From the IMG/VR virus record IMGVR_UViG_3300028194_000327, positions 1 through 27,887 of that record: a DNA stretch of 27,887 bases; one strand, written 5' to 3'. This document shows, piece by piece, positions 1 through 23,372 of the stretch. A program made the position numbers and the translations under genes. Numbering within the stretch: the stretch's first letter is position 1; every line of letters begins with the position of its first letter. This DNA is from a virus. Under the pieces are notes generated by a model. That model was not told the origin of the DNA. It saw only the letters and a list, made by a program, of their open reading frames with translations, and did not search any database.

Positions 1-1362
1 ATCTAAATCTGAAGTAGCAGCACCACCAGCACTACCAGTCATCCACGTTTTGTAACGTCTGTCTTCTGTTTCAGAAGCTCTGTATCTTACGTGTAAGAAT
101 GGTCTCTTAGCGTTTTTTCCTAAGATTTGATCGTATACTGAAGTAGAACCAGCTGGTACTAAAGCACCGCTTACTTTTCCACCATCAATACCACCTCTTA
201 AAGTAGCATCGTTTAAGTATTTCCAATCTGACTTATAGAAATCATAACCTCTTCTGAATCCTTTGAATCCAAGGTTAAGTGCCATTTCTTCGTCATTGTC
301 AAACAATCCGTAAGAAGTACCACCTGCACCGTAAGAGTTTTGAGCAGCTAACATGTCATCAATTGCGAAAGAGAAATTTCTATCAACAAAGATTACATTT
401 TCCTGAATAGAACCTTGCTTGTCTAACCTTTTGATTATAGTATCAAATGCAGCTAAAGTAGTTGGATAACCACCTGCCCATACATTTCCTCTAGACTCAA
501 TAGCTTCGAACATTCCTTCAGTACCTACGTTATTAGCTAAACCTGTTCCAGCTGGATAAGCTGAACCTGATAAGTTAGCTAAAGCACCTGAAGCATTTTC
601 AGCAATAACACCTTCAATCATAGACATCTCTAAGTAGTCTTCAAATCTTAGTCTTGTTTCGTGCTCAGACTTCAAATACCATAAGTATCCAGTAGCTCCA
701 TTTTCAGTAGTTACTTCAACCCATCCAATTTGAGCCATATCAGAACCAGAAACAACATACTTGTCTTTGATAATAATTGGTTTGTTAGATAAGAAGATAT
801 CTTCAGCTTCTAAAGATCCAACCATTCCAGTTGTTCCTTGTTGAAATTCAGAACCGTATACAAATACAGTTAATGGAACGTTTGCTGGTACTACTTGACT
901 AGCCTCGTAAAAAGCTACGAAAAACTCATCAGTAGTAGCTGCACCAACACTAGTAACAATACCCTTGTTAGAATTTGACCCACCATTTTCTGATATTAAA
1001 ACAGTTTGTCCTACTCTAAAGTTACAAGCTTCATTTGTTCCTGCTCCACCAGCTCCTGTTAAAAACTTAACGGGTACTGCAACTGCAGCCGGAGCTGTAG
1101 CTGTTTGTGCTGCTGCATACTTTGTATGTAGTCTACCTTGCTCTGCCCATTTGATAAGGTCTGAGTTAGTAGGCATTTCAGCTCCTACCATACGTAAGAA
1201 AGCTGCGATTGTTCTGTTACCGTATCTTTCGAATTCTTTTTCGTAAGTATCAGGTAAGTACTGACTCAAAAAATTGAAATCAGTTATATAATTACTTGGC
1301 AAAGTTGCCTTTACCGAACTGGGAGTTAATGCAACTCCACCAGCGTTTAATGATCCTGCCAT
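1..1362 (-). CDS. Major capsid protein (3' end outside window)
   Basis: Partial gene: 454 codons are present from the ATG at 1362, open to the left edge with no stop. The translation starts MAGSLNAGGVALTPSS and continues through YITDFNFLSQYLPDTYEKEF and TIAAFLRMVGAEMPTNSDLI. It is rich in Ala and Gly, has no signal peptide or membrane segment, and carries mid-protein runs such as GYLWYLKSEHETRLRFEDYLE and ENVIFVDRNFSFAIDDM that look like a folded shell protein. Position is the strongest evidence: it is last in the order terminase, portal, acidic scaffold-like protein, this gene. The HK97 fold is expected from the family and is not visible directly. It starts 18 nt after the upstream stop, so it is probably cotranscribed. 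A less likely alternative is another abundant virion protein. Confidence 0.82.
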   Translation of the reverse strand, partial: MAGSLNAGGVALTPSSVKATLPSNYITDFNFLSQYLPDTYEKEFERYGNRTIAAFLRMVGAEMPTNSDLIKWAEQGRLHTKYAAAQTATAPAAVAVPVKFLTGAGGAGTNEACNFRVGQTVLISENGGSNSNKGIVTSVGAATTDEFFVAFYEASQVVPANVPLTVFVYGSEFQQGTTGMVGSLEAEDIFLSNKPIIIKDKYVVSGSDMAQIGWVEVTTENGATGYLWYLKSEHETRLRFEDYLEMSMIEGVIAENASGALANLSGSAYPAGTGLANNVGTEGMFEAIESRGNVWAGGYPTTLAAFDTIIKRLDKQGSIQENVIFVDRNFSFAIDDMLAAQNSYGAGGTSYGLFDNDEEMALNLGFKGFRRGYDFYKSDWKYLNDATLRGGIDGGKVSGALVPAGSTSVYDQILGKNAKRPFLHVRYRASETEDRRYKTWMTGSAGGAATSDLD

Positions 1363-2565: not shown

Positions 2566-4998
2566 TTATCTGGGGTTAAACTCAGCAAAATTAAATCCGT
2601 CTAAACTATCCTCGTTAGATTCAAAATTTATAGGAGGTAATTTACTTTGTCTTTGCTGTATTAACTTAGACTGTTCAGTGTTTTGTTTTGATATCCTAGC
2701 TGATTTAGCTTGCTCTCTTTGGACTTCCCTTTCTTGCATGCTGCCTACATCAATTCCTTTTAGCTGCATTTGATACATAAACTCTTCCGCCATAAGCTCC
2801 TTCTTGAGCATAGCTTCTTGTTGTAGTTTTTGTATAGCAAATTGCGTTTCTGACTTTTCAATCTCTATTTTAGCCTGCATTTCAGCTTGTATTGATTGCA
2901 TTTTATTTTGAGCAGCTGCTTGTTGAGATTGCATATTTACCTGACCCTGCATTTCCATCTTCTGGTTTTCTCTAGTGATATCTTGCTCTTGTTTCTTTCT
3001 TCTTTTTAGCTTCAATAGCTCATTTGCCATCTTTAGGTTCTTTATCTCCCTAATGTCAATAGCATCTTCTAAACTAATTTGATCACGACTCATAGCCATT
3101 TGAATATTAGCTTCTAATTGTGCTTTTTCTTCTTCATCAGGAGCAACTTCTAAAAACACTCCAAAATCATGTAGGTATAAATCTTTTATGCTATTTAATA
3201 TAGATACGTTGTACTTACCTACTTGCATAGCAAACTCTTCTTTGAAATCTGCATATTCTAAAACATCTGCTAGTCTACAGGACAATGCTTCAGCTAGTTT
3301 CTGGGTTATTTGAACATTTGCCTCTAATATGTGTCTAGTTGCAACATTTGAATTTAAAGCAGCTAATTTTTGTAAACCTACCAAAGCATCTGGATTAGGT
3401 GTTGATGCATCTCTAGCTTCGTTAAGTCCCGTTACATCTCTAATCATATTTAGATAATGGTTGTACGAACTTATTAAACTAGCCATCTTAGCCTGACCAC
3501 TGTTAGTACCCAGCTCCTGTATTGGAACTCTAGCATTATTAAATTCACCATCTTGAGTATAACTTCTCCCAATGACACTACCCGTTTGAAAATATAGCTT
3601 TAATGCGTCTTCTGGATTGTAAGCAGCTCCTGTTCCTAAATCTACTTCGTTTAATCCATCGGCATCTATAAATACACCATCAGGCACTACTCTAGATATA
3701 ACTTGTTGTAATTTAAGATGAACTATTTGTATTAAATCAGCAAACGTGATCATTCTTCTTACTAAAGATTCAATTACGCCCTTATACATTCTTGGAGCAG
3801 CTCCGATATAATTAGGCAAAGCATACTGAGAAGCTGACTTAGGTCTAACCATATTCTTAGATAACTCCCACTTTAATACTTTTTGAGTACCCATCACCAT
3901 GATACCTTCGTACCAGACATCTATTCTTTTTTCTAACTTCTCAAATCTTTCTTGTTCTTCTACTGGTGGATTGAAGTCATCATCTTTTCTAATTACTTTT
4001 TCACCACCATTATCCATATACTTTTTCTTATAAACCATTTTCTTTGTGGTCTTATAATTGTAGTATAGTAAAGTGACTACATCTTTTTGAAACATACTAT
4101 CCTGATAAGGTCTAATAATTCCATAGTAGTTATACCATAAAGATGACATTTGAGATATTTCCTCCATCTCTTCTAAACTGATATCTGGATTTATCTTAGC
4201 TAGCTCTGTTATTGGAACTTGTTTTACTTCTCCAAAATAAAAGCAATCATCAAAAGTAGGGCTTTCTGTATAGCTATAAACTAATGAAGCTGGATCTACG
4301 TATTCTATTGAAACACCTGAATTAGGTAGAAACTGGTGCTTTACAAATGAAGTGCCTAAAACCATTAGGTCATAGTTCATTTGCTTCTGTATTCTTTGTT
4401 TGTAATGGTTCTGTTCTAGTAATGTGTCTATAGCTTCTTCTTCAGCAATTTCAATCGCTGGCTTATAGTTCATTTGCATATATAGTGCTAACTCCTGCTC
4501 GCTTTCCGGTAGGTCTTGCTTAGGTGTATTAAACATATCTATACCGAACATAGCTTCTGTTGCCTCTAACATAGGTTTAGCAATCATATCTGCTTCTACA
4601 ATTTCCTGAAACTTATGTTTTTTCTCAGCAGACATAGCGTCTTGAGCCACCGCTTTTACATCAAATAATCTATCAGCCATTCCATTAACTACAATGTCAA
4701 CAAACTTAGGAATGATAGGAACTGGTGTCCAATCTAGATTTAAATAACTTAAGTCTCCATCTACAGATATCTCGTTTTTATATTTACCTATAGGTTGTTC
4801 TCCCCTAGCATATAGTCTTAATCTATGGAACTCTACCCACTGATCATAAAACCTGCAACTATTACCACTTCTCTTAAACCATTCATACTGTATTGATTCT
4901 CCTACTTGTCTACCGTATTCGATAGTTTCTTTTTCTGAGTCTGTTGCTGATTGGTTTGGGAAGTTGGTTTGGTTAATTATAACTGATGGTTCTTTCAT
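2566..4998 (-). CDS. Portal protein
   Basis: 810 aa, unusually long for a portal and in the range known for crAss-like and related large Bacteroidota podoviruses. The dodecameric portal sits at one capsid vertex and is the channel for DNA packaging. Residues of note: WTPVPIIPKFVDIVVNGM near residue 95, followed by a long helix-rich body with a TFADLIQIVHLKLQQVISR segment. From about residue 650 to the end there is a Gln/Lys/Met-rich, almost certainly coiled-coil tail (LLKLKRRKKQEQDITRENQK onward), compatible with a barrel or with scaffold contact. It directly follows terminase (2-nt gap) and precedes the scaffold gene. It starts at the ATG at 4998. The function call comes from size, position and overall look rather than a single motif. 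Confidence 0.82.
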   Translation of the reverse strand: MKEPSVIINQTNFPNQSATDSEKETIEYGRQVGESIQYEWFKRSGNSCRFYDQWVEFHRLRLYARGEQPIGKYKNEISVDGDLSYLNLDWTPVPIIPKFVDIVVNGMADRLFDVKAVAQDAMSAEKKHKFQEIVEADMIAKPMLEATEAMFGIDMFNTPKQDLPESEQELALYMQMNYKPAIEIAEEEAIDTLLEQNHYKQRIQKQMNYDLMVLGTSFVKHQFLPNSGVSIEYVDPASLVYSYTESPTFDDCFYFGEVKQVPITELAKINPDISLEEMEEISQMSSLWYNYYGIIRPYQDSMFQKDVVTLLYYNYKTTKKMVYKKKYMDNGGEKVIRKDDDFNPPVEEQERFEKLEKRIDVWYEGIMVMGTQKVLKWELSKNMVRPKSASQYALPNYIGAAPRMYKGVIESLVRRMITFADLIQIVHLKLQQVISRVVPDGVFIDADGLNEVDLGTGAAYNPEDALKLYFQTGSVIGRSYTQDGEFNNARVPIQELGTNSGQAKMASLISSYNHYLNMIRDVTGLNEARDASTPNPDALVGLQKLAALNSNVATRHILEANVQITQKLAEALSCRLADVLEYADFKEEFAMQVGKYNVSILNSIKDLYLHDFGVFLEVAPDEEEKAQLEANIQMAMSRDQISLEDAIDIREIKNLKMANELLKLKRRKKQEQDITRENQKMEMQGQVNMQSQQAAAQNKMQSIQAEMQAKIEIEKSETQFAIQKLQQEAMLKKELMAEEFMYQMQLKGIDVGSMQEREVQREQAKSARISKQNTEQSKLIQQRQSKLPPINFESNEDSLDGFNFAEFNPR

Positions 4999-5000
4999 TT

Positions 5001-7232
5001 TTACTTTATAATAGTGCTCAATGTACCTTTATTACTATATCTTGCAAAGTTAATGCTTATTTTTGATTCTTTCTTGGGAACATGATACAAGTGTTTTTGA
5101 TTAGCCATTATAGCTAGACCTGAACTTATTGTAGCATCATACTTAGTCCTGTTGTTTATATTAAATTTAGCCCAATCTTCTAGAGTTCTAGTGAAGTACA
5201 TGGAACCCATTTCGTCTGGATCTCTATACACTGAATCTAAATCTAATCCTACATATTTCTCTATGTAAGACTCCACAGCTGCAGCATGAGCTTGTTTTAC
5301 CGCTTCTGATGAGTTTGGTATCCCTCCAAGTTCTTTTTCTGTCTTAGAGAGCGTTGTTTTACTTTTGTCAGGTCTGTTTATAGAGAAGGCTCTGTAACCT
5401 CTGTTTTTAAAATGGTAAAGCAATCTAGGTTTATTATTCTCAATTAAAATAGGCATACCATAAAAAACACAAGCCATAAGCACATCTTCAAAAAATATCT
5501 CTGCAGTTTGTGGTCTAGCTACATATTCTAAAAAAAACTCATTGCTAGGAGCTTCATCCATATTAAACTTTGTTAGTCCATGCAAAGCTCCATTTGATCC
5601 AATACCACCTACAGTCCCAGAAATATCATAACTATCGCATCCAAACGAACCTAAGTGTTCATTGCCAGGGTAAAACATATTAGACCTATTTATAACTCTG
5701 TTTTGTAGCTCAGGTTTTGGAGTCCAAGAAACTAAAAATCTTCCTTTTCTGTCCGGAACCCATATAACCTTGGTATCTTGTATTCCATCTTTCCAAACAA
5801 ACTTTCCTTTAGTAATATACCTTTGTTTAATAAGAGAATCGTTGTAGTCTATTTGCTGATATATTTTAGTTAGATTAAACAAAGACTGTTTACTTTCATC
5901 TCTAAATGCATGTGATTCTGTTCTAGGAAACTGCCTGTAAAATTCATTAAGAGCATCTGCATCATTCTTTAAAGACTCTACCTCATTCTCCCAGTATTGA
6001 ACAACACCTAAACTTATTTTTTCTTGATCTGTTCCTGTTATTGGTTTTTCAGGAGTGTCTAAAACAGCGTGTCCAAATTCATCTATGTATCCCTCAAAAT
6101 TATACTCCATTGGAATAAATAATGAATACAACCCGGACTTAGTTTGACCATTAGCATTTCTACTAGTTACATCAGAATCACTATATAATTTTTTAAAGTT
6201 TTCACCACCTTTATCTAAAGCATTAGAAGTAGATCCCATCATACATTTCCCAACTATTTTACTACCTAATCTTAAACAGGTTTTAGTTACCCTCCAGTTA
6301 TTTAATATATTTTCAGGCTTATCCCACTTACCACTTTCATCGTGTATTAATAATAGTAATTTTTCTCCATCATAAGAGTTGTCAGAAGTGTTCTTCCAAT
6401 CTAATACAGTATCAAGCCCATCCATCACAAGCTCATCTGTTTTACCCATGTTTTTTTTGGTTATTTTACTAGCTGGAACTCGGTATGCTAATTCTGTTTT
6501 AGGTTTGTCCATTCCATCCTGAATAGGCTTAAAAAAGAAAGGATAGTTATTAGATATAGGAACCACCTTGTCGGTAAACATTTTTTTAGCATCGCCTCCA
6601 GTTTTAGATAATATACCTACTCTAGCATCCCTAGTAATAGTTCCTTGGTTGACAGCTTCGCATGAACTCATAAACGAGAACCCTGAACGCCTGTTTTTTA
6701 AGTAACACATTCCAAAACTTCTTTTGTCTAACTTACAAGCTTCCCAAAATAAATAAAATATTCTATTAGATTCTCTGAAATCTGGTTTACCTACATCTAT
6801 CTTAGTCCAATTCAAATACATATAGTGAGTCCCTGTGACATAAGTAGATTCTCCGTTATTTGTAAACCAATATCCCTTTTCTCTTTTTTCAAACTCTTCC
6901 TCAATATAATCTACCCACTTTGACTTAAATGTATTGTCTCTTTTTTGCCAATCAAATATTGTTTTAATACCAGATAATTCTTTAGGTATGTCCTCTGCTT
7001 TCCATTTATTATATCTGCTATTTATTGTTTTTGGTTCTTTTGGTAATCCTATTTTTAGACCTTGCACATCATACACCTCTCCTAAAGTTCCATCTTTAGA
7101 TATAATTACAATGTCATACTTTTCGTTGTATCCGTAATCCCAAGTCTTAGATTTGTTCTTGTTGGTTATTACAGTTTTAGGTACAACTTCAGTTATAACT
7201 TTATGTAGTCTATTTTGATCTTTTTTCTGCAA
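5001..7232 (-). CDS. terL: Terminase large subunit
   Basis: 743 aa packaging motor (ATPase plus nuclease). An ATPase core is visible: a degenerate Walker A/adenine-binding stretch KNRRSGFSF at 179-187 and a clear Walker B, LLLLIHDE, at 292-299 ending in the catalytic Glu. The RNase H-type nuclease is suggested by acidic clusters FGCDSYD (530-536) and a later ILIENN (596-600). The canonical GxxGxGKT loop is absent; Arg-Ser-Gly replaces it, as in several terminase families of Bacteroidota phages. The start appears to be TTG at 7232; no nearby in-frame ATG exists, and a TAA lies seven codons upstream. It overlaps the preceding gene by 23 nt, which suggests translational coupling. Confidence 0.9.
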   Translation of the reverse strand: MQKKDQNRLHKVITEVVPKTVITNKNKSKTWDYGYNEKYDIVIISKDGTLGEVYDVQGLKIGLPKEPKTINSRYNKWKAEDIPKELSGIKTIFDWQKRDNTFKSKWVDYIEEEFEKREKGYWFTNNGESTYVTGTHYMYLNWTKIDVGKPDFRESNRIFYLFWEACKLDKRSFGMCYLKNRRSGFSFMSSCEAVNQGTITRDARVGILSKTGGDAKKMFTDKVVPISNNYPFFFKPIQDGMDKPKTELAYRVPASKITKKNMGKTDELVMDGLDTVLDWKNTSDNSYDGEKLLLLIHDESGKWDKPENILNNWRVTKTCLRLGSKIVGKCMMGSTSNALDKGGENFKKLYSDSDVTSRNANGQTKSGLYSLFIPMEYNFEGYIDEFGHAVLDTPEKPITGTDQEKISLGVVQYWENEVESLKNDADALNEFYRQFPRTESHAFRDESKQSLFNLTKIYQQIDYNDSLIKQRYITKGKFVWKDGIQDTKVIWVPDRKGRFLVSWTPKPELQNRVINRSNMFYPGNEHLGSFGCDSYDISGTVGGIGSNGALHGLTKFNMDEAPSNEFFLEYVARPQTAEIFFEDVLMACVFYGMPILIENNKPRLLYHFKNRGYRAFSINRPDKSKTTLSKTEKELGGIPNSSEAVKQAHAAAVESYIEKYVGLDLDSVYRDPDEMGSMYFTRTLEDWAKFNINNRTKYDATISSGLAIMANQKHLYHVPKKESKISINFARYSNKGTLSTIIK
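5045..5052 (-). promoter_or_regulatory. -7 box TAACTTTG before portal
   Basis: TAnnTTTG match inside the last codons of terL, 46 nt before the portal ATG. No good -33 element. It could be chance, but it repeats the exact octamer found before the scaffold gene. Confidence 0.35.
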
Positions 7233-7494
7233 ATCCTTGATAAGCCTCTTTTTTTATTGTTCTCTCTTCTAGCATAGCTTGCTCTTCTTGTATTCTTTTA
7301 AGTATTTCAAAAGCATCAAATATGGCCAGCTTCTTAGTAGCTGCTGCGTTTTTTAATCTATCTGCCGCTAAATCATCTTCAGCATCGTACTTTATGATAT
7401 CTTCCTTAGCTACTTTTATTAGCTCTTTAACAGCTATTTCTCCAGCTTGAATAATATCTTCCTTTAGTTTTTTTACACTTATATCAACACGCAT
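7210..7494 (-). CDS. Small helical protein in terS position
   Basis: 94 aa, almost wholly helical by composition. A notable core is AEDDLAADRLKNAAATKKLA followed by IFDAFEILKRIQEEQAMLEE, which has heptad-like spacing. It lies immediately upstream of terL and overlaps it by 23 nt, and it overlaps the previous gene by 16 nt. Small terminase subunits are usually encoded exactly here and recognise the packaging site, so this is a candidate. However, no N-terminal helix-turn-helix is evident and the protein is shorter than most TerS. It could equally be a small head-assembly factor. The start is the ATG at 7494. Confidence 0.6.
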   Translation of the reverse strand: MRVDISVKKLKEDIIQAGEIAVKELIKVAKEDIIKYDAEDDLAADRLKNAAATKKLAIFDAFEILKRIQEEQAMLEERTIKKEAYQGFAEKRSK

Positions 7495-8048
7495 ACATCT
7501 TTTGTTTTCATTCTGTATAGAGTCTCTCCTTCTACCTTAAATTCGTATTCTGATTCAGGCAAGAAACAAACATCATCTCCTTCTAATATATCTAAAGATA
7601 CCAATTCTTTGTTTCCATACTTTACTTTTCCTACTAATTGCTTATTTCTATCCACAGACAATATAACATCTTTTTCTTTTTCAGTTGGCTTAATAAAACA
7701 ATAATCACCAACAGAGTTCCATTTATCTTTGCTTTTGTGTAAATATACTTGCTCTATATCTACTATATATAAATCATCTTTAAAATGGCATGGACCGCTT
7801 TTTTCTACACCTTTCATGTCGTAGTATTTTCTAAAAACATTATGGTGCACTACTACAGTATCTCCTTTTTTAATGTCCTTATTAAAAGCCCAAAGAATAG
7901 GTATCTCTTCTACTATTGCAAATCTGTTGGTAGTAGTATGATCTTCTTGAGAAGCACTTGTAATCAACTTACCGTCTCCATGCTTGCTTAAATTGTCATA
8001 GCGTTGACCTCCTTGAGGCTTCACTATAAAACAATAGGGAGATTTCAT
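7479..8048 (-). CDS. Tandem GroES-like (double Cpn10 fold) protein
   Basis: 189 aa that appears to hold two GroES-like beta-barrel domains. Domain 1 (about 5-105) has YCFIVKP, a loop GDGKLITS (24-31) comparable to the GroES mobile loop, KKGDTVVVHHN (60-70), and DDLYIV near the end. Domain 2 (about 114-189) has GDYCFIKP, EGDDVCF (156-162), GETLYRM and KDVCVLI. These line up with the canonical GroES at 21004-21261 (KEGDYIYYN, EDLYTVV, KDIVVVL). Domain 2 seems to lack a full mobile loop. It sits two genes upstream of terL in the head-assembly block. Likely role: a co-chaperonin-like or structural barrel protein in capsid assembly. The fold is inferred from by-eye alignment; binding to GroEL is unproven. 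Confidence 0.68.
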   Translation of the reverse strand: MKSPYCFIVKPQGGQRYDNLSKHGDGKLITSASQEDHTTTNRFAIVEEIPILWAFNKDIKKGDTVVVHHNVFRKYYDMKGVEKSGPCHFKDDLYIVDIEQVYLHKSKDKWNSVGDYCFIKPTEKEKDVILSVDRNKQLVGKVKYGNKELVSLDILEGDDVCFLPESEYEFKVEGETLYRMKTKDVCVLI

Positions 8049-18367: not shown

Positions 18368-18778
18368 ATGAAACATGACTTTTTAAAACATTGGAGGGTC
18401 GTTAGATACTTAATAAAAAAACAATATGGTCTATCTCAGCAAGATTTAGAGCTGCTTCTTTTTTTACATAGCGAAGGTAGATTTACTAATGATGACTTTC
18501 ACTGGTATGATACTATTGTATCTTGGGATCCTAAAAAATTTGTAAGATTAAAGAAAGAAGGATGGATAAAGCAATGGAGAACTAATTCAGGTAGATCAAA
18601 AGCCATATATGAATTAACTCATAAAGGTAAAATTGCTATGGGAAGAGTTTATAGATTACTGCTTGAAGAAGAAAGATTTCCAGAAAGCACTAGAAACCCT
18701 GTGAGTAAGCCTAAAAGAAGTTCTGAATATAGATACTTTAATGCAATGAAGAAAATAAATAGAGAGAATCCTACTTAA
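18368..18778 (+). CDS. Winged-helix (MarR-like) DNA-binding protein
   Basis: 136 aa, the only plus-strand gene among minus-strand neighbours. Residues 17-100 read as a winged helix: KKQYGLSQQDLELLLFLHSE (helices 1-2), FTNDDFHWYDTIVSWDPKKF (helix-turn and recognition helix), VRLKKEGWIKQWRTNSGRSK (wing) and AIYELTHKGKIAMGRVYRLL (return helix). The C-terminus is basic. It starts divergently 51 nt from the late operon's first gene, so it is well placed to control late transcription, either as repressor or activator. Alternatives are a replication or packaging-site binder. The ATG at 18368 lies in an AT-rich leader. Confidence 0.68.
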   Translation: MKHDFLKHWRVVRYLIKKQYGLSQQDLELLLFLHSEGRFTNDDFHWYDTIVSWDPKKFVRLKKEGWIKQWRTNSGRSKAIYELTHKGKIAMGRVYRLLLEEERFPESTRNPVSKPKRSSEYRYFNAMKKINRENPT

Positions 18779-18965: not shown

Positions 18966-19074
18966 GTTTTCTACCTTTACCCCTTAATGGTCTAGTAAAC
19001 AATGAATCAAAATTCAGTGCCCTCCAATAAGGTTGGTTAAATATTGCTCTATCTGAAGTAGATTTTTTTCTCAC
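18940..19074 (-). CDS. 44-aa basic protein
   Basis: GTG start at 19074, TAA at 18940-18942. The start overlaps the stop of the upstream gene as GTGA, a typical coupled junction. The translation starts MRKKSTSDRAIFNQPYWRAL and ends in a basic run RPLRGKGRKRGKNKRLS. The high Arg/Lys content fits the neighbouring cluster of tiny basic proteins. No family known to me. Confidence 0.5.
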   Translation of the reverse strand: MRKKSTSDRAIFNQPYWRALNFDSLFTRPLRGKGRKRGKNKRLS

Positions 19075-19289
19075 TTCTTAATCATAGAAGATATATGGCT
19101 TCCAGCTTTTTCATACTTCATTCCATGATCTCCACCGTAAGCGTGTCCGTAATCTTTCTTTGACATAGCTTTAGATTCATCTCTTCTAGATTTCATAGAT
19201 TGAGAATGAGCTCCTTTATGCTTGTTTCCTAAAGACTCATCTAGTCTTGCGTTATATCCTTGTTTCATTTTCTTTGTTTTAGTTGCCAT
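19071..19289 (-). CDS. 72-aa basic protein, Gly/His/Lys-rich
   Basis: Strongly basic, with a patterned middle: QGYNARLDESLGNKHKGAHS, then MKSRRDESKAMSKKDYGHAY and GGDHGMKY. The RRDESKAM and LDESLG phrases look like short helical repeats. It has no membrane segment and no cysteine. A TATATTTG promoter box lies 10 nt before the ATG. It could be a DNA-binding or virion-packaged peptide; only basicity supports that. Confidence 0.6.
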   Translation of the reverse strand: MATKTKKMKQGYNARLDESLGNKHKGAHSQSMKSRRDESKAMSKKDYGHAYGGDHGMKYEKAGSHISSMIKK

Positions 19290-19299
19290 TAGGCGTTTA

Positions 19300-19307
19300 C
19301 AAATATA
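19300..19307 (-). promoter_or_regulatory. -7 box TATATTTG before the 72-aa gene
   Basis: Consensus -7, partly in the last codons of the 99-aa gene, 10 nt before the ATG at 19289. Leader very short. No recognisable -33. Confidence 0.45.
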
Positions 19308-19607
19308 CTAATATTTTCCTTGTCTTGATTTTGGGGAGCTTTTGGTAGAGCCTCCTTTGCCAGCCCATAAATTTTTGCAGGCCCAATACCGAGCTGTCAA
19401 CTTCGACTTGGCTGTTCCGCATTTATGTCTGGCTCGGAAACTTTTTCTAGCAGCAGTGGAATAGTTGTGACCGTATCCCTTTGCTCCAAAATGTATTATC
19501 TTTTCTTTACCACCCTCACATCCCTTGACCATTTTCTTTTTACCTGGTCTAGTAGAAGATCTAGGCTTGTTACATGCCATTGATGATTTATCTACTCTTT
19601 TTGCCAT
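19308..19607 (-). CDS. 99-aa basic phage protein (CNKPR / KEKIIHFG family)
   Basis: Basic protein with a pattern I recognise in many phage and giant-virus small proteins: CNKPR near the start, then VKGCEGGKEKIIHFGAKGYG, then KSFRARHKCGTAKSKLTARY and WACKNLW. The conserved part covers about 10-80. Two Cys (in RHKCGT and YWACK) and the aromatic ARYWACK end suggest a compact metal- or nucleic-acid-binding fold. Its role is not known to me. The tail is Ser/Lys/Gly-rich. It starts at the ATG at 19607. Confidence 0.68.
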   Translation of the reverse strand: MAKRVDKSSMACNKPRSSTRPGKKKMVKGCEGGKEKIIHFGAKGYGHNYSTAARKSFRARHKCGTAKSKLTARYWACKNLWAGKGGSTKSSPKSRQGKY

Positions 19608-19608
19608 G

Positions 19609-19737
19609 TTATTTTTTCTTTGGTTTGGTGTGAGTATATCCTTTTTTCTTTAATGACAAATGTTCTTTAATTGTTTTAGCAACCTTCTTTATACCTGTTT
19701 TACTATACATGTTATGTGCTTTAAACTTTTTTGCCAT
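19609..19737 (-). CDS. 42-aa basic protein
   Basis: ATG at 19737, TAA at 19609-19611. MAKKFKAHNMYSKTGIKKVA continues with a basic helix, KTIKEHLSLKKKGYTHTKP, ending KKK. The gene ends 1 nt before the next start. Codon content and spacing fit the cluster. Unknown function. Confidence 0.55.
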   Translation of the reverse strand: MAKKFKAHNMYSKTGIKKVAKTIKEHLSLKKKGYTHTKPKKK

Positions 19738-19834
19738 TTTTTTTATTCTTTTTTGATTTATCTAAGTGCTCTACTAATGTTTTTATTCCAAGTATAGAGG
19801 CTGCACATAGAACCAGCATTAATTCATCAAACAT
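19721..19834 (-). CDS. 37-aa hydrophobic/basic peptide
   Basis: ATG at 19834, TAA at 19721-19723. MFDELMLVLCAASILGIKTL forms one membrane-like helix followed by a Lys-rich end (KKNKKNGKKV). It overlaps the next gene by 17 nt and follows the previous stop by 3 nt. Short, so some risk of being spurious, though the packing is consistent. Confidence 0.42.
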   Translation of the reverse strand: MFDELMLVLCAASILGIKTLVEHLDKSKKNKKNGKKV

Positions 19835-19837
19835 ATC

Positions 19838-19993
19838 CTAGTAGCTAGACTCCATTTTTTTCTCCATACCGTAGTTTGGATTGTAACTAATTTTTCCTTT
19901 ATACATTTTAGCACATGAATCAGCTTGAGCTTTTCCTACTGCGTTATATGGAAATACTTTTTTCTTTCCACCTGGTAACTTTACTGTTGGCAT
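19838..19993 (-). CDS. 51-aa basic protein
   Basis: ATG at 19993, TAG at 19838-19840. MPTVKLPGGKKKVFPYNAVG, then KAQADSCAKMYKGKISYNPN, ending YGMEKKMESSY. The PGGKKKVFPYN start looks like a short beta-hairpin followed by a helix. Unknown function. It starts 2 nt after the previous stop. Confidence 0.58.
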   Translation of the reverse strand: MPTVKLPGGKKKVFPYNAVGKAQADSCAKMYKGKISYNPNYGMEKKMESSY

Positions 19994-19995
19994 AA

Positions 19996-20109
19996 TTATT
20001 TTTTTTTCTTTTTACTTTTCTTTAGTTTAATAAAATCCGCTGAGGTAATCTTGTCAAAAGGCATAGCAACTCTTGCTATTTTTCTTTGTTTCTTGCTTAA
20101 TTTACTCAT
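19996..20109 (-). CDS. 37-aa basic protein
   Basis: ATG at 20109 overlapping the previous stop as ATGA. MSKLSKKQRKIARVAMPFDK, then ITSADFIKLKKSK and a five-lysine end. The VAMPFDKITSADFIKL phrase is non-random and coding-like despite the short length. Unknown function. Confidence 0.52.
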   Translation of the reverse strand: MSKLSKKQRKIARVAMPFDKITSADFIKLKKSKKKKK

Positions 20110-20462
20110 TTTCTTTTAACTGGTTTTACTTTTTTTCCTCCTGCTCCTCTCATTCCTACTCTTTTCTTTTCTGCTTTTTTTCTGCTCAACTCAGACTTGC
20201 TCATCTCTCCCTTTGTTTTAGGAGTCTTTGAAGAAACTCTTTTTGTTGGTCTACAATATTCTGTTTTTCCTCCAGATCCACATGGCTTTCCTGTTCTGGT
20301 ATCTACCCACTTCTCTTTTCCCCATCTCTTAAGATTAGAACCAGCTTTTGTTTTCCTTACCTTACCTTTTGCTTTACGACACTTTGCAGTAGCTTGAGCA
20401 GCACGAGCTGACCATTTACCGTAGCTTTTCATTATTTTTCTATAACAAGCGTCTTTTGGCAT
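20106..20462 (-). CDS. 118-aa basic phage protein (KDACYxK / WVDxxTGKPCG)
   Basis: Two motifs that I recognise as recurring in small basic proteins of phages and large viruses: KDACYRKIMKSYGKWSARAA with AQATAKCRKAKGK (1-33), and KEKWVDTRTGKPCGSGGKTE followed by YCRPTKRVSSKTPKT (49-84). The C-terminal 35 residues are almost all Lys, Arg, Gly and Ser. Four cysteines may bind metal. It is related in style to the DUF5872-type proteins, but I cannot confirm family membership. Likely nucleic-acid binding or virion-associated. Confidence 0.66.
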   Translation of the reverse strand: MPKDACYRKIMKSYGKWSARAAQATAKCRKAKGKVRKTKAGSNLKRWGKEKWVDTRTGKPCGSGGKTEYCRPTKRVSSKTPKTKGEMSKSELSRKKAEKKRVGMRGAGGKKVKPVKRK

Positions 20463-20668
20463 TATAAATTTAAATTTCTTTTTGACATTTTTCTTTTAAG
20501 AATACTTCTTCTTATGTTTCCAAATGGTCCGGTTGCATTAAATATATCTTCGCTTTTTCCTTCTTCTTTAGCATCTTTTCTTTCTATACTACCCATTGGA
20601 TAGTCCTTGTAAGCTGGTCTATTTGCTTTTCTTCTAGCTTTTCTTTTTTCTCTATCTAGTTTTGACAT
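20462..20668 (-). CDS. 68-aa basic protein
   Basis: MSKLDREKRKARRKANRPAY begins a highly charged helix; the middle (KDYPMGSIERKDAKEEGKSE, DIFNATGPFGNIRR) is less basic, and the end is again basic. It overlaps the next gene by 1 nt and starts 2 nt after the previous stop. Unknown function. Confidence 0.6.
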   Translation of the reverse strand: MSKLDREKRKARRKANRPAYKDYPMGSIERKDAKEEGKSEDIFNATGPFGNIRRSILKRKMSKRNLNL

Positions 20669-20670
20669 AA

Positions 20671-20985
20671 TTATTTACCTCCTGTATTTCCTTTGTTTTT
20701 TCTACCGCTTCCTTTTTTACCTCTTGCTCTTCTGTCTCCAGCAGTAGCAGATTTACTTCCTCTGTTTTTACTAGCTTTTTCTAAGACAATTCTTCCTCCT
20801 TTGTGAGAAACATCCTTGCCATCATAATTGCCATAAGTTCCAAACTCTCGATTCTTTTTGTTATCGAAAACTCTTCGCTTTACCTGCCCTGGTTTTTTGT
20901 TGTACTTTTTTTGGTAATCGTTGTGCTTTTTTCTAGCAGCTTTGTTTTTCCTGTAAAACCTTGCAGTACGACTTAACTTAGACAT
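20671..20985 (-). CDS. 104-aa basic phage protein (TARFYRKN / GTYGN / DVSH)
   Basis: Motifs: KLSRTARFYRKNKAARKKHN, then DYQKKYNKKPGQVKRRVFDN, then REFGTYGNYDGKDVSHKGGR and LEKASKNRGSK. This order (TARFY..NPEAR, KY...P....R..LN..NR..GTYGNGD.KD.SH) recurs in small proteins of many marine phages; role unknown. It contains no second Met, so the ATG at 20985 is the only ATG start. That start lies just 4 nt after a -7 promoter box, implying a leaderless or nearly leaderless message. Confidence 0.7.
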   Translation of the reverse strand: MSKLSRTARFYRKNKAARKKHNDYQKKYNKKPGQVKRRVFDNKKNREFGTYGNYDGKDVSHKGGRIVLEKASKNRGSKSATAGDRRARGKKGSGRKNKGNTGGK

Positions 20986-20989
20986 ACAG

Positions 20990-21020
20990 CAAAGATAGTT
21001 ATTTTACAGAACTACTACAA
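20990..21020 (-). promoter_or_regulatory. Promoter (TTG-N20-TATCTTTG) before small basic gene cluster
   Basis: The -7 box TATCTTTG is at 20990-20997, and a -33 TTG at 21018-21020 sits 20 nt away, near the Bacteroidota optimum. It lies between groES and the 104-aa gene, partly in the last groES codons. Confidence 0.62.
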
Positions 21021-21261
21021 TATCCTTGTCTTGAACGACAGTATATAAATCCTCACCAATTCTAACTTCGTGAGTTTGTAGTTTATTGTAATAAATATAA
21101 TCTCCTTCTTTTAAATAAGTGAGCCCTGATCCAAATGAAACAACTTCTCCTTTACGGTACATCATTCCAACTGTATCTTTGGAAGTTAGAAGCAACCCCC
21201 CTTGACTTTTGTGAGACTCCTTAACTTCTTTTACTAAAACATATTTTCCTACTGCTTTCAT
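21004..21261 (-). CDS. groES: Co-chaperonin GroES (phage-encoded)
   Basis: 85 aa, slightly shorter than the usual ~97. It has the full Cpn10 pattern: AVGKYVLVKEVKE at the start, a mobile loop at 15-28 (ESHKSQGGLLLTSK, with GGLLL in place of GGIVL), KEGDYIYYN (51-59), EDLYTVVQDKDIVVVL at the end. It closes the GroEL cage. It begins within the groEL stop (ATGA overlap), so the two are translated together. The gene order is groEL then groES, opposite to the usual bacterial groES-groEL, which argues against recent capture of a whole host operon. The shortfall in length is in the roof/loop region. Confidence 0.92.
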   Translation of the reverse strand: MKAVGKYVLVKEVKESHKSQGGLLLTSKDTVGMMYRKGEVVSFGSGLTYLKEGDYIYYNKLQTHEVRIGEDLYTVVQDKDIVVVL

Positions 21262-22826
21262 TTTTCTCTTACGTTAGTTATAATAGCATTAGTACTTAAA
21301 ATAGTCGAAGCAATAGAAATAGCATTTCTTACTGCACTCTTAGTAACCTTGCATGGATCTATAATTCCTAACTTAATCATATTGCCATACTTATCATTCT
21401 TTACATCGTATCCTGTTCCCGGGTCTAAATTTGGTTCTATCAACTTAGTTTCTATTCCAGCATTAGTTAAAATCTGATAAAACGGAGCCTTCAATGCTTT
21501 TTCCATAATAGCCATAGAAACTCTTTGACTTTCGCCAGCACCGAGCTTTGCGAGGTCATCCGCTATTTCTTTCAGTGCTATGCCACCACCTGGCAATATT
21601 CCGTCTTCAAGGGCTGCTCTTGTGGCGCATACTGCATCATCGACACGATCTTTCTTTTCTTTTTGTTCAATATCTGAGTTCGCTCCAACGTGAATCACTC
21701 CAATCTTTCCAGATATCATAGCAATTCTTTTTTTAATAAACTCTTGTTCTTTAGAAGTTTCGTGCATTTCCCATAGTGATTCCATGTGATTATTGAGCTG
21801 AGACTCTAAGTGTTCATCTTCTTTTCTTACAATCACAGTGTTTGCATTATCTACAATAACCTTTCGGGCTGATCCCAGGTCTTCTAATCTAACCAACTGA
21901 AAGTTATCACCGGTATCTTCACTAAAGTAAGTGGCTCCTGTGGCAATAGCTATATCTTGCATCATCTGATCTTTCTTCCATCCAAACTCTGGTGGCTGAA
22001 TTACACAAACCTTTAAACCATTTCTAACTTTATTCAAATTAAGTGTATTCATTACTTTGGCATCGACATCTCCAATAATCAAAAGAGACTTTCCGTTTTG
22101 TAATACATCTGCTAGCACATGTTCAATAGATGACATATTCTCAACAGTAGAATTTAAAACTAGTATATAAGGATTTTCAAGGACACATTCTTCTGTTTTT
22201 TGATCCGTTATAAAATACCTTGACATATATCCTCTTTTCAGTCTCATTCCTTCACTTGTAGAAAACCAAGTATCTCCACCATCAGAATTCTCAACAGTAA
22301 CCACTCCATTAATTCCTACTAAATCGTAAGCTTGAGCAATTATGTTTCCTATCTCTTTATCATTGTTTGCTGATATAGATGCTACATCTACTAATTTTTT
22401 AGCAGTAATCTTTTTCTTTTTCTTGTCTAGTGCTTTAATAATAAAATCTGTAGTGTCCTGCATATTTCTAATAATATCAGTCAGATTCATTTCTTTCTTT
22501 ATTCTTTTTTGAGCTTCTGCAATAATAGCTTGTGTCAAAACAATAGCAGTGGTGGTTCCATCACCAGCTTCGGTTGCAGTTTTTTCAGCAGCTTCTCTAA
22601 TTATTCTAACAGCTAAGTCTTCTGTCGGATCCATTAGTGCAATACTTTTAGCAACAGTTACACCATCCTTAGTAATTGTTACTCCACCTATATGATTTTC
22701 GGATTCTATTAGAACTGTTCTACCTCTAGCACCTAAAGTACTCTTAACAGCATCAGCGATTTTATTTACACCGCCTATTAGTTTTTTTCTAGCCTCTTCT
22801 TCAAAGCTAATCTCTTTTACAATCAT
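21258..22826 (-). CDS. groEL: Chaperonin GroEL (phage-encoded)
   Basis: 522 aa ATP-driven folding chamber. All key residues are present: TKDGVTVAK with D54, GDGTTT at 88-93 for nucleotide binding, Y200/Y204/F205 in RGYMSRYF for substrate contact, D397 in DRVDDAVCATRAALEDG, and GGG at 413-415. It ends ITNVREK, so the flexible GGM tail is missing. A TTG at 22850 would add eight residues, but the promoter box at 22852-22859 would place transcription start downstream of it, so the ATG at 22826 (MIVKEISFEEEARKKL) is chosen. Likely folds capsid or fibre proteins, as host or phage chaperonins do in other phages. Confidence 0.95.
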   Translation of the reverse strand: MIVKEISFEEEARKKLIGGVNKIADAVKSTLGARGRTVLIESENHIGGVTITKDGVTVAKSIALMDPTEDLAVRIIREAAEKTATEAGDGTTTAIVLTQAIIAEAQKRIKKEMNLTDIIRNMQDTTDFIIKALDKKKKKITAKKLVDVASISANNDKEIGNIIAQAYDLVGINGVVTVENSDGGDTWFSTSEGMRLKRGYMSRYFITDQKTEECVLENPYILVLNSTVENMSSIEHVLADVLQNGKSLLIIGDVDAKVMNTLNLNKVRNGLKVCVIQPPEFGWKKDQMMQDIAIATGATYFSEDTGDNFQLVRLEDLGSARKVIVDNANTVIVRKEDEHLESQLNNHMESLWEMHETSKEQEFIKKRIAMISGKIGVIHVGANSDIEQKEKKDRVDDAVCATRAALEDGILPGGGIALKEIADDLAKLGAGESQRVSMAIMEKALKAPFYQILTNAGIETKLIEPNLDPGTGYDVKNDKYGNMIKLGIIDPCKVTKSAVRNAISIASTILSTNAIITNVREK

Positions 22827-22851
22827 TAAATTAAATTTTATTAAAGTCAAA

Positions 22852-22882
22852 CAAATATATACAAAAACAATTCACATGCAAA
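22852..22882 (-). promoter_or_regulatory. groEL promoter (TTTG-N19-TATATTTG)
   Basis: The best promoter in the window: -33 TTTG at 22879-22882, exactly 19 nt, then -7 TATATTTG at 22852-22859. It gives a leader of about 20 nt before the groEL ATG. Confidence 0.78.
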
Positions 22883-22896
22883 AAATATTAAATAAA

Positions 22897-22933
22897 GTTT
22901 GGGTTGTTTGGGGTGGTTTGGGTTAGCCCAAAC
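22897..22933. repeat. Triple GTTTGGG repeat ending in a perfect hairpin
   Basis: GTTTGGG occurs at 22897, 22906 and 22916 (9-10 nt apart). The last copy forms a perfect 7-bp inverted repeat, GTTTGGG-ttag-CCCAAAC (22916-22933). It sits about 15 nt upstream of the groEL -33 box, the position of an operator or activator site. Confidence 0.55.
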
Positions 22934-23372
22934 TATTAGTAGTGTTACAGTGTTGGTTTTTTGCCCTATATACAGATTTATTTTTTTTACATATATATTA
23001 TTATTTTTTTTTTCTCCTACCCCCCCCTAAAAAGTAACATTATAACACTAGTAGTATATTAACTATATGATAATCAAACAGTTAGAGCAACTTATATAAA
23101 GTGTTAGTTTAAAAAATTCGTAACACTAAACCAACACTAATGGGTCAAAACCAACACCTTTTTGCCATTTTATCCGTTTTAAAACGTTTAAATCGTTTAT
23201 CAATTTTCCCTAAATCCTTAAAACGTGTTATAAAAAACTTGTAAAATACTGCACCAAAACTGTACTATCATCAAAACCAACACCAATTAGTGTTACTCTA
23301 TGACGCAATAATGTTATGAATTACAATGTGAAAATTAATCTTTGGAACGAAAGTGTATCTGCAATTATAACC
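22934..23372. other. Non-coding part of the divergent hub with short repeats
   Basis: No convincing gene on either strand in about 440 nt. It holds ACCAACAC at 23130, 23150 and 23276 and its reverse GTGTTGGT at 22950. The 14-mer TCAAAACCAACACC occurs at 23145 and 23271. There are many AACACTA/TAGTGTT words, a 12-bp palindrome CGTTTTAAAACG at 23175-23186, and a C8 tract at 23020-23027 in otherwise A/T-rich DNA. Such repeat density suits an origin or regulatory region. Confidence 0.45.

Follow-up and report, generated by a model that had tools for sequence, protein, structure and literature searches.

The closest described systems differ in which chaperonin subunits the phage supplies and in how their genes are arranged. 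The co-chaperonin gp31 of phage T4 has a longer mobile loop and no roof, two features credited with enlarging the chamber in which folding takes place (PMC6318259). Phage EL encodes a Cpn60 of its own, gp146 (PMC7185714), the description of phage Panino reports both chaperonins (PMC11590407), and GroEL is encoded by 36 of 78 Flavobacteriaceae-type environmental genomes near phage phi38:1 (PMC5332604). Marine et al. (2017, ISME J, as quoted in PMC9611531) reported a link between subunit gene order and the phylogeny of viral GroELs from virioplankton. Here we analyze a groEL-groES pair in the IMG/VR virus record IMGVR_UViG_3300028194_000327, which is probably a fragment and whose entire 27,887 bases are referred to below as the window. 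Like phage EL, the window phage encodes its own Cpn60, and its pair is a well-supported addition to a known virus-specific chaperonin family; a link between gene order and the ancestry of viral GroELs has already been reported.

The window shares several features with two sequenced phages. Elemovirus, a Flavobacterium phage with a genome of about 60 kb (NC_062741), likewise has groEL followed by groES (1-base overlap) and a tandem GroES-like gene overlapping the terminase gene; however, its GroEL is 38% identical to that of the window, its operon lies on the strand opposite to the neighboring genes, and G88 and T91 of GroEL are S and C, respectively. Podoviridae sp. ctfjg026 (MW202828) resembles the window in the gene order with overlap, in a terminase that is 70% identical and in the block of tandem GroES, terminase and portal genes, whereas its GroEL is 46% identical and the overlap is 44 bases long. 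The viral GroELs of Marine et al. are from genomes over 70 kb according to the quotation in PMC9611531, while the long records in this study are about 54-67 kb. The groES-groEL operon of Escherichia coli and Flavobacterium has in common with the window the group I Cpn60 and Cpn10 families and the ATPase site, but differs by its opposite gene order, its GGM tail, its roof hairpin, and apical residues L234 and V263.

Gene order of the groEL-groES pair

The two genes of the pair are as follows:

22826..21258, minus strand: groEL (Cpn60), 522 amino acids, with the ATG at 22826 and the stop codon ending at 21258; PF00118, 2.5e-63; phrog_5725 (chaperonin groEL), 1.3e-136
21261..21004, minus strand: groES (Cpn10), 85 amino acids, with the mobile loop GGLLL; PF00166, 3.9e-13

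The Cpn60 profile match covers nearly the whole of GroEL (positions 1-488 of the 490 in PF00118). A TTG at 22850 is a possible alternative start of groEL, although less likely than the ATG at 22826. At the junction groEL comes first and groES second, and the two genes share the four bases ATGA. An assembly artefact has been ruled out as the source of this overlap, which recurs in many relatives and is identical in a contig from another metagenome (L005) whose GroEL is 99% identical to that of the window.

Relatives were collected from IMG/VR by searches with the window GroEL and with a family alignment, bacterial genomes were searched with the same alignment, and the position of groES in each locus was found with an iterated profile. 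In the phage clade, groES is located downstream of groEL on the same strand in 88 of 89 loci and upstream in none, a tally that counts a few contigs twice; the sole locus without groES is a short contig. The opposite arrangement characterizes the 80 bacterial loci, with groES upstream in 77, downstream in none, and not seen in three. Among the junctions, overlaps of 17, 4, 23, and 14 bases occur most frequently. The order is also reversed in Elemovirus, MW202828, and Panino, and the standard order, with groES first, is found in the immuto phages, phi38:1, and a Bacteroides phage.

The reversed order is thus the normal state in this phage lineage and no peculiarity of the window phage. An earlier note on this DNA had described the order groEL then groES with an ATGA overlap, opposite to the bacterial operon, and both the coordinates and the order were borne out. 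The note had also named a survey of gene order in relatives beforehand as a test, and no close relative with the standard order was encountered in it. Its remark that a full chaperonin pair is uncommon in phages did not hold, since 233 GenBank phage records match the window GroEL and full pairs of GroEL and GroES are common in the lineage.

The groEL-groES junction is also a site of cargo insertion. More than 60 bases separate the two genes in 37 of the 94 phage-clade loci examined (for example, at L006:5089-5742, L010:11536-11928, L226:7683-8564, L244:3188-3571, and L233:2873-5389, given as contig and positions), and the order groEL-cargo-groES is unbroken in all loci with cargo. The inserted genes include PhoH (6e-51), a SET domain (6e-11), and a spike-like open reading frame (ORF). 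The ORF at L010:11536-11928, which also occurs in L011 and L205, lies between groEL and groES and has an N-terminal GldL domain (PF22827, 9e-19); GldL is part of the gliding and type IX secretion motor of Bacteroidota.

Ancestry of the phage GroEL

A careful IQ-TREE analysis was performed on 58 GroELs, 37 of them from phages with the reversed order, and the resulting tree is unrooted. Phage phi38:1, which has the standard order and a long branch, was left out of it; in a larger quick tree, which contained redundant sequences and is superseded by the careful one, the placement of phi38:1 was unsure. All 37 reversed-order phage GroELs, including those of Elemovirus and Panino, fall on one side of a branch with a support of 100/100. 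The other side holds the bacteria together with the immuto phages, a Bacteroides phage, a 735-kb phage, and a Vibrio phage, and some of these phage GroELs, nested among bacteria, look like later captures. Gene order switches once on the tree, and because the tree is unrooted, the direction of the change is taken from the uniform order in bacteria. Forcing the phage clade together with the GroELs of Flavobacteriales was rejected in the approximately unbiased (AU) test with a moderate p-AU of 0.021.

These results support an old phage GroEL lineage with one ancient rearrangement, in line with the old acquisition and rearrangement that had been proposed for the pair. The phylogeny, which had likewise been suggested as a check, places the window GroEL outside any host clade, and an origin within a host clade was rejected by the tree and the AU test.

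Some viral sequences of a different kind were also recovered. The GroELs of viral contigs L258, L260, and L261 are nested inside Flavobacteriales, with no groES within the fetched flanks; either they were recently captured from a host, or the contigs include host DNA. Two nominal phages were counted as bacterial: "Acinetobacter phage MD-2021a" (H2), which is placed with bacteria by its neighboring genes (pckG and a lipid kinase) and by the tree, and Enterococcus phage Efs 1-1-1, from its position in the tree. Records CAKLQH020000021.1 (L015) and CAKLQF020000019.1, which bear the name Acinetobacter phage MD-2021a, resemble bacterial chromosome contigs and are probably mislabelled; groS-groL is in the standard order in CAKLQH020000021.1.

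GroEL residues, co-chaperonins, and likely function

The ATP-binding and catalytic residues of the window GroEL are present (T30, G32, K51, D52, G53, D87, G88-T91, S151, D398, G415, and D495), with a single change at the ATP site, P33 to A. Across 86 phage-clade GroELs the ATPase residues are nearly invariant, and variation is mainly found at P33 and G415. Eight apical contact positions were checked (Y199, Y203, F204, L234, L237, L259, V263, and V264), six of which are hydrophobic in the window GroEL; L234 is replaced by E and V263 by N. The replacement of L234 is typical of the phage clade, with E or Q in 83 of the 86 sequences, and position 263 is mostly A there. The hinge residue G375 is K in the window. 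None of the 86 phage-clade GroELs has a GGM tail, which is present in 70 of the 82 sequences that make up the bacterial set.

At 85 amino acids, the window GroES is shorter than its counterparts in E. coli (97) and Flavobacterium (about 91), and it is short because the roof hairpin is missing, its mobile loop being slightly longer. The roof region comprises 10 residues in 78 of 82 phage GroES proteins; that of E. coli has 19, and most bacterial ones fall in the range of 14-19. The mobile loop, in which GGLLL is retained, has 22-23 residues in the phages versus 20 (2-3 longer). The predicted model of GroES (predicted local distance difference test score, pLDDT, 86.4) has the Cpn10 fold, with a template modeling (TM) score of 0.80 to 4v4o_O and Z scores of about 11 to Cpn10s, and contains no strands in the region of the roof hairpin. 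When solved structures were searched by sequence using the GroES profile, T4 gp31 was not recovered, but it was found by fold (Z 9.4). Both proteins are roofless phage co-chaperonins with a lengthened loop, a resemblance that may best be regarded as a likeness of design; T4 relies on the host GroEL, whereas the window phage encodes its own. The roof hairpin seen in E. coli GroES is dispensable for a co-chaperonin, given that gp31 has none.

A second co-chaperonin-like gene adjoins the packaging genes:

7479..8048, minus strand: tandem GroES-like (Cpn20-like) protein, 189 amino acids, adjoining the large terminase gene; phrog_13932 (co-chaperonin GroES), 7.5e-16
7210..7494, minus strand: ORF of 94 amino acids flanked by the genes for the tandem GroES and the terminase; phi19:3 and MW202828 have an ORF of comparable length at this place

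The tandem protein has hundreds of relatives, and its gene is at the same place in Elemovirus, MW202828, phi38:1, phi19:3, and Panino. Its predicted model (pLDDT 83.7) is best matched by chloroplast Cpn20 (7ekq_R, Z 10.3 over 158 residues). As in Cpn20, two Cpn10-like domains are predicted to lie head to tail, but sequence similarity is very low, and the motifs HHNxF and SQEDH are conserved in the phage protein only. Profile comparison identifies domain 2 as Cpn10 (E 3.2e-6), whereas domain 1 matched GroES with a probability of 8% and is Cpn10 only by its predicted fold. GroEL and GroES are also present in all six records of at least 54 kb that were found via the tandem protein. Cellulophaga phage phi19:3 (L272, NC_021789) encodes a single-domain GroES (32125-32346) as well as the tandem GroES, and no GroEL was found in this genome, which indicates that a phage GroEL is not needed for the lids to be retained.

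With regard to the protein features claimed in the earlier note, the absence of the GGM tail, the shortness of GroES, and the existence of the tandem GroES-like protein (8048..7479, minus strand) were all confirmed. The statement that all catalytic and substrate-contact residues of GroEL are kept is correct for the catalytic and ATP-site residues, apart from P33, and incorrect for the substrate contacts, given the changes at L234 and V263. Of the three Cpn10-type domains that it counted, two are recognizable by sequence; the third, the first half of the tandem protein, is recognizable only by predicted fold.

Judging from the sequence, the group I chaperonin of the window is probably complete and part of an old lineage that is specific to phages and occurs in podovirus-like phages of Bacteroidota; it would provide a dedicated folding cage for virion proteins. 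groEL and groES would be co-transcribed and translationally coupled, and their products would form a GroEL-like barrel with a heptameric lid that may act without the host chaperonin in folding virion proteins (the capsid protein, portal, terminase, or large spikes). With neither roof nor GGM tail, the cage could be roomier or open-topped, as with T4 gp31. A single event in an ancestor of the clade, probably the capture or rebuilding of the pair, would have produced the reversed order, which would have been kept since. Several observations weigh against this interpretation. With polar or charged residues at positions 234 and 263, the phage GroEL may bind substrate and lid differently from E. 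coli GroEL, and its ring-ring contacts R452, A109, and S463 are changed, so that it may form either a single or a double ring. The roof of Bacteroidota GroES is already shortened (14 residues in many), a Bacteroides phage with the standard order (L020) also has a 10-residue roof, and the likely capsid protein, of about 450 amino acids, would fit into a normal cage and may not need a larger one.

Other explanations of the locus have to be weighed against the same evidence. One alternative is that the window phage recently took up the groESL operon of a Flavobacteriia host and that the genes were then inverted or shuffled locally in this phage alone. Such a capture would have parallels in the host-like viral GroELs that do exist (L258, L260, and L261 in Flavobacteriales, and Vibrio phage GroELs in Gammaproteobacteria). 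It is nevertheless hardly credible, as the window GroEL has 50-80% identity to phage GroELs but about 42% to the closest bacterial ones, belongs to a separate, fully supported clade that the AU test keeps apart from Flavobacteriales, and shares its gene order with 88 of 89 relatives. The substitutions at L234, V263, G375, and the ring-ring contacts, together with the missing GGM tail and roof, could instead mark the pair as a degenerate or moonlighting remnant that has lost protein folding; this is very unlikely in view of ATPase residues that are nearly invariant in the 86 phage-clade sequences, reading frames that are open, a mobile loop that is kept throughout, and strong conservation of the pair.

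The pairing of lids and barrels could also differ from that assumed above. The main partner of the phage GroEL might be the tandem Cpn20-like lid, with the single GroES acting on the host GroEL, or vice versa. Both lids and GroEL occur in nearly all long records of relatives, and phi19:3 retains the tandem and single GroES without GroEL, both of which would suit such a division; however, groES overlaps groEL, the tandem gene sits with the terminase gene, and the second loop of the tandem protein is without a clear hydrophobic tripeptide, which makes this pairing improbable. A two-lid system is a tentative idea that we consider somewhat doubtful: in addition to its own GroEL and a roofless, gp31-like GroES coupled to that GroEL, the phage would possess a second, Cpn20-like lid, made of two Cpn10 domains and encoded with the packaging genes, and each lid would make its own kind of cage, for different virion proteins. 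If true, this would place the Cpn20 architecture in a phage, outside the plastid lineage. A literature search for tandem Cpn20 or GroES in phages, which is weak evidence of absence, returned only a chloroplast review and no description of a phage that combines a roofless GroES with a second, Cpn20-like co-chaperonin.

Proposed promoter, gene neighborhood, and biological meaning

Further features of the window are the following:

22852..22882, minus strand: Bacteroidota-type promoter TTTG-N19-TATATTTG, a motif match 26-56 bases upstream of the groEL ATG
18368-18778, plus strand: possible transcription regulator, the only clear break in the leftward run of genes; phrog_12817, 0.0016
5001..7232, minus strand: large terminase subunit; phrog_6681, 1e-176
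2566..4998, minus strand: portal protein; phrog_6547, 8.2e-142
1..1362, minus strand: probable major capsid protein, truncated at the end of the window with 454 amino acids seen; phrog_13704 (virion structural protein), 4.1e-95

Among 84 loci (window included), which are not all independent, the full promoter motif precedes groEL in 23, where 0.22 would be expected, and the -7 box TAnnTTTG in 60, where 8.5 would be expected. Within the window alone the motif was found twice against 1.49 expected, with no above-chance signal; the promoter is therefore proposed because the motif recurs upstream of groEL in relatives and not because of its count in the window. Isolated relatives infect Flavobacterium, Cellulophaga, and Maribacter, which makes a Bacteroidota host most likely.

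groEL opens a long leftward run of genes that ends with the tandem GroES, terminase, portal, and probable capsid genes, and the probable major capsid protein is a candidate substrate of the chaperonin. Directly 3' of groES (window positions 19071-20985, minus strand) lie five small, very basic ORFs of 68-118 amino acids with 17-41 lysines plus arginines each, one of which has a match to phrog_220 ("minor head protein and DNA pilot", 6e-15). The leftward and rightward gene runs are separated by a non-coding stretch at 22900-23300, which contains repeated AAAACCAACAC/GTGTTGGTTTT elements in both orientations (at 22950, 23147, and 23273) and a GTTTGGG-TTAG-CCCAAAC palindrome near 22917, and which is possibly a regulatory or replication site.

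A whole lineage of Bacteroidota phages thus keeps a complete chaperonin that is far diverged from the GroEL of its hosts, and the single old change of gene order serves as a marker by which the lineage is easily recognized in metagenomes. The Cpn20-like gene conserved next to the terminase gene is the less explored part of this system. The isolated relatives Elemovirus and Panino make it experimentally approachable why these phages would need a GroEL of their own despite the presence of a host GroEL.
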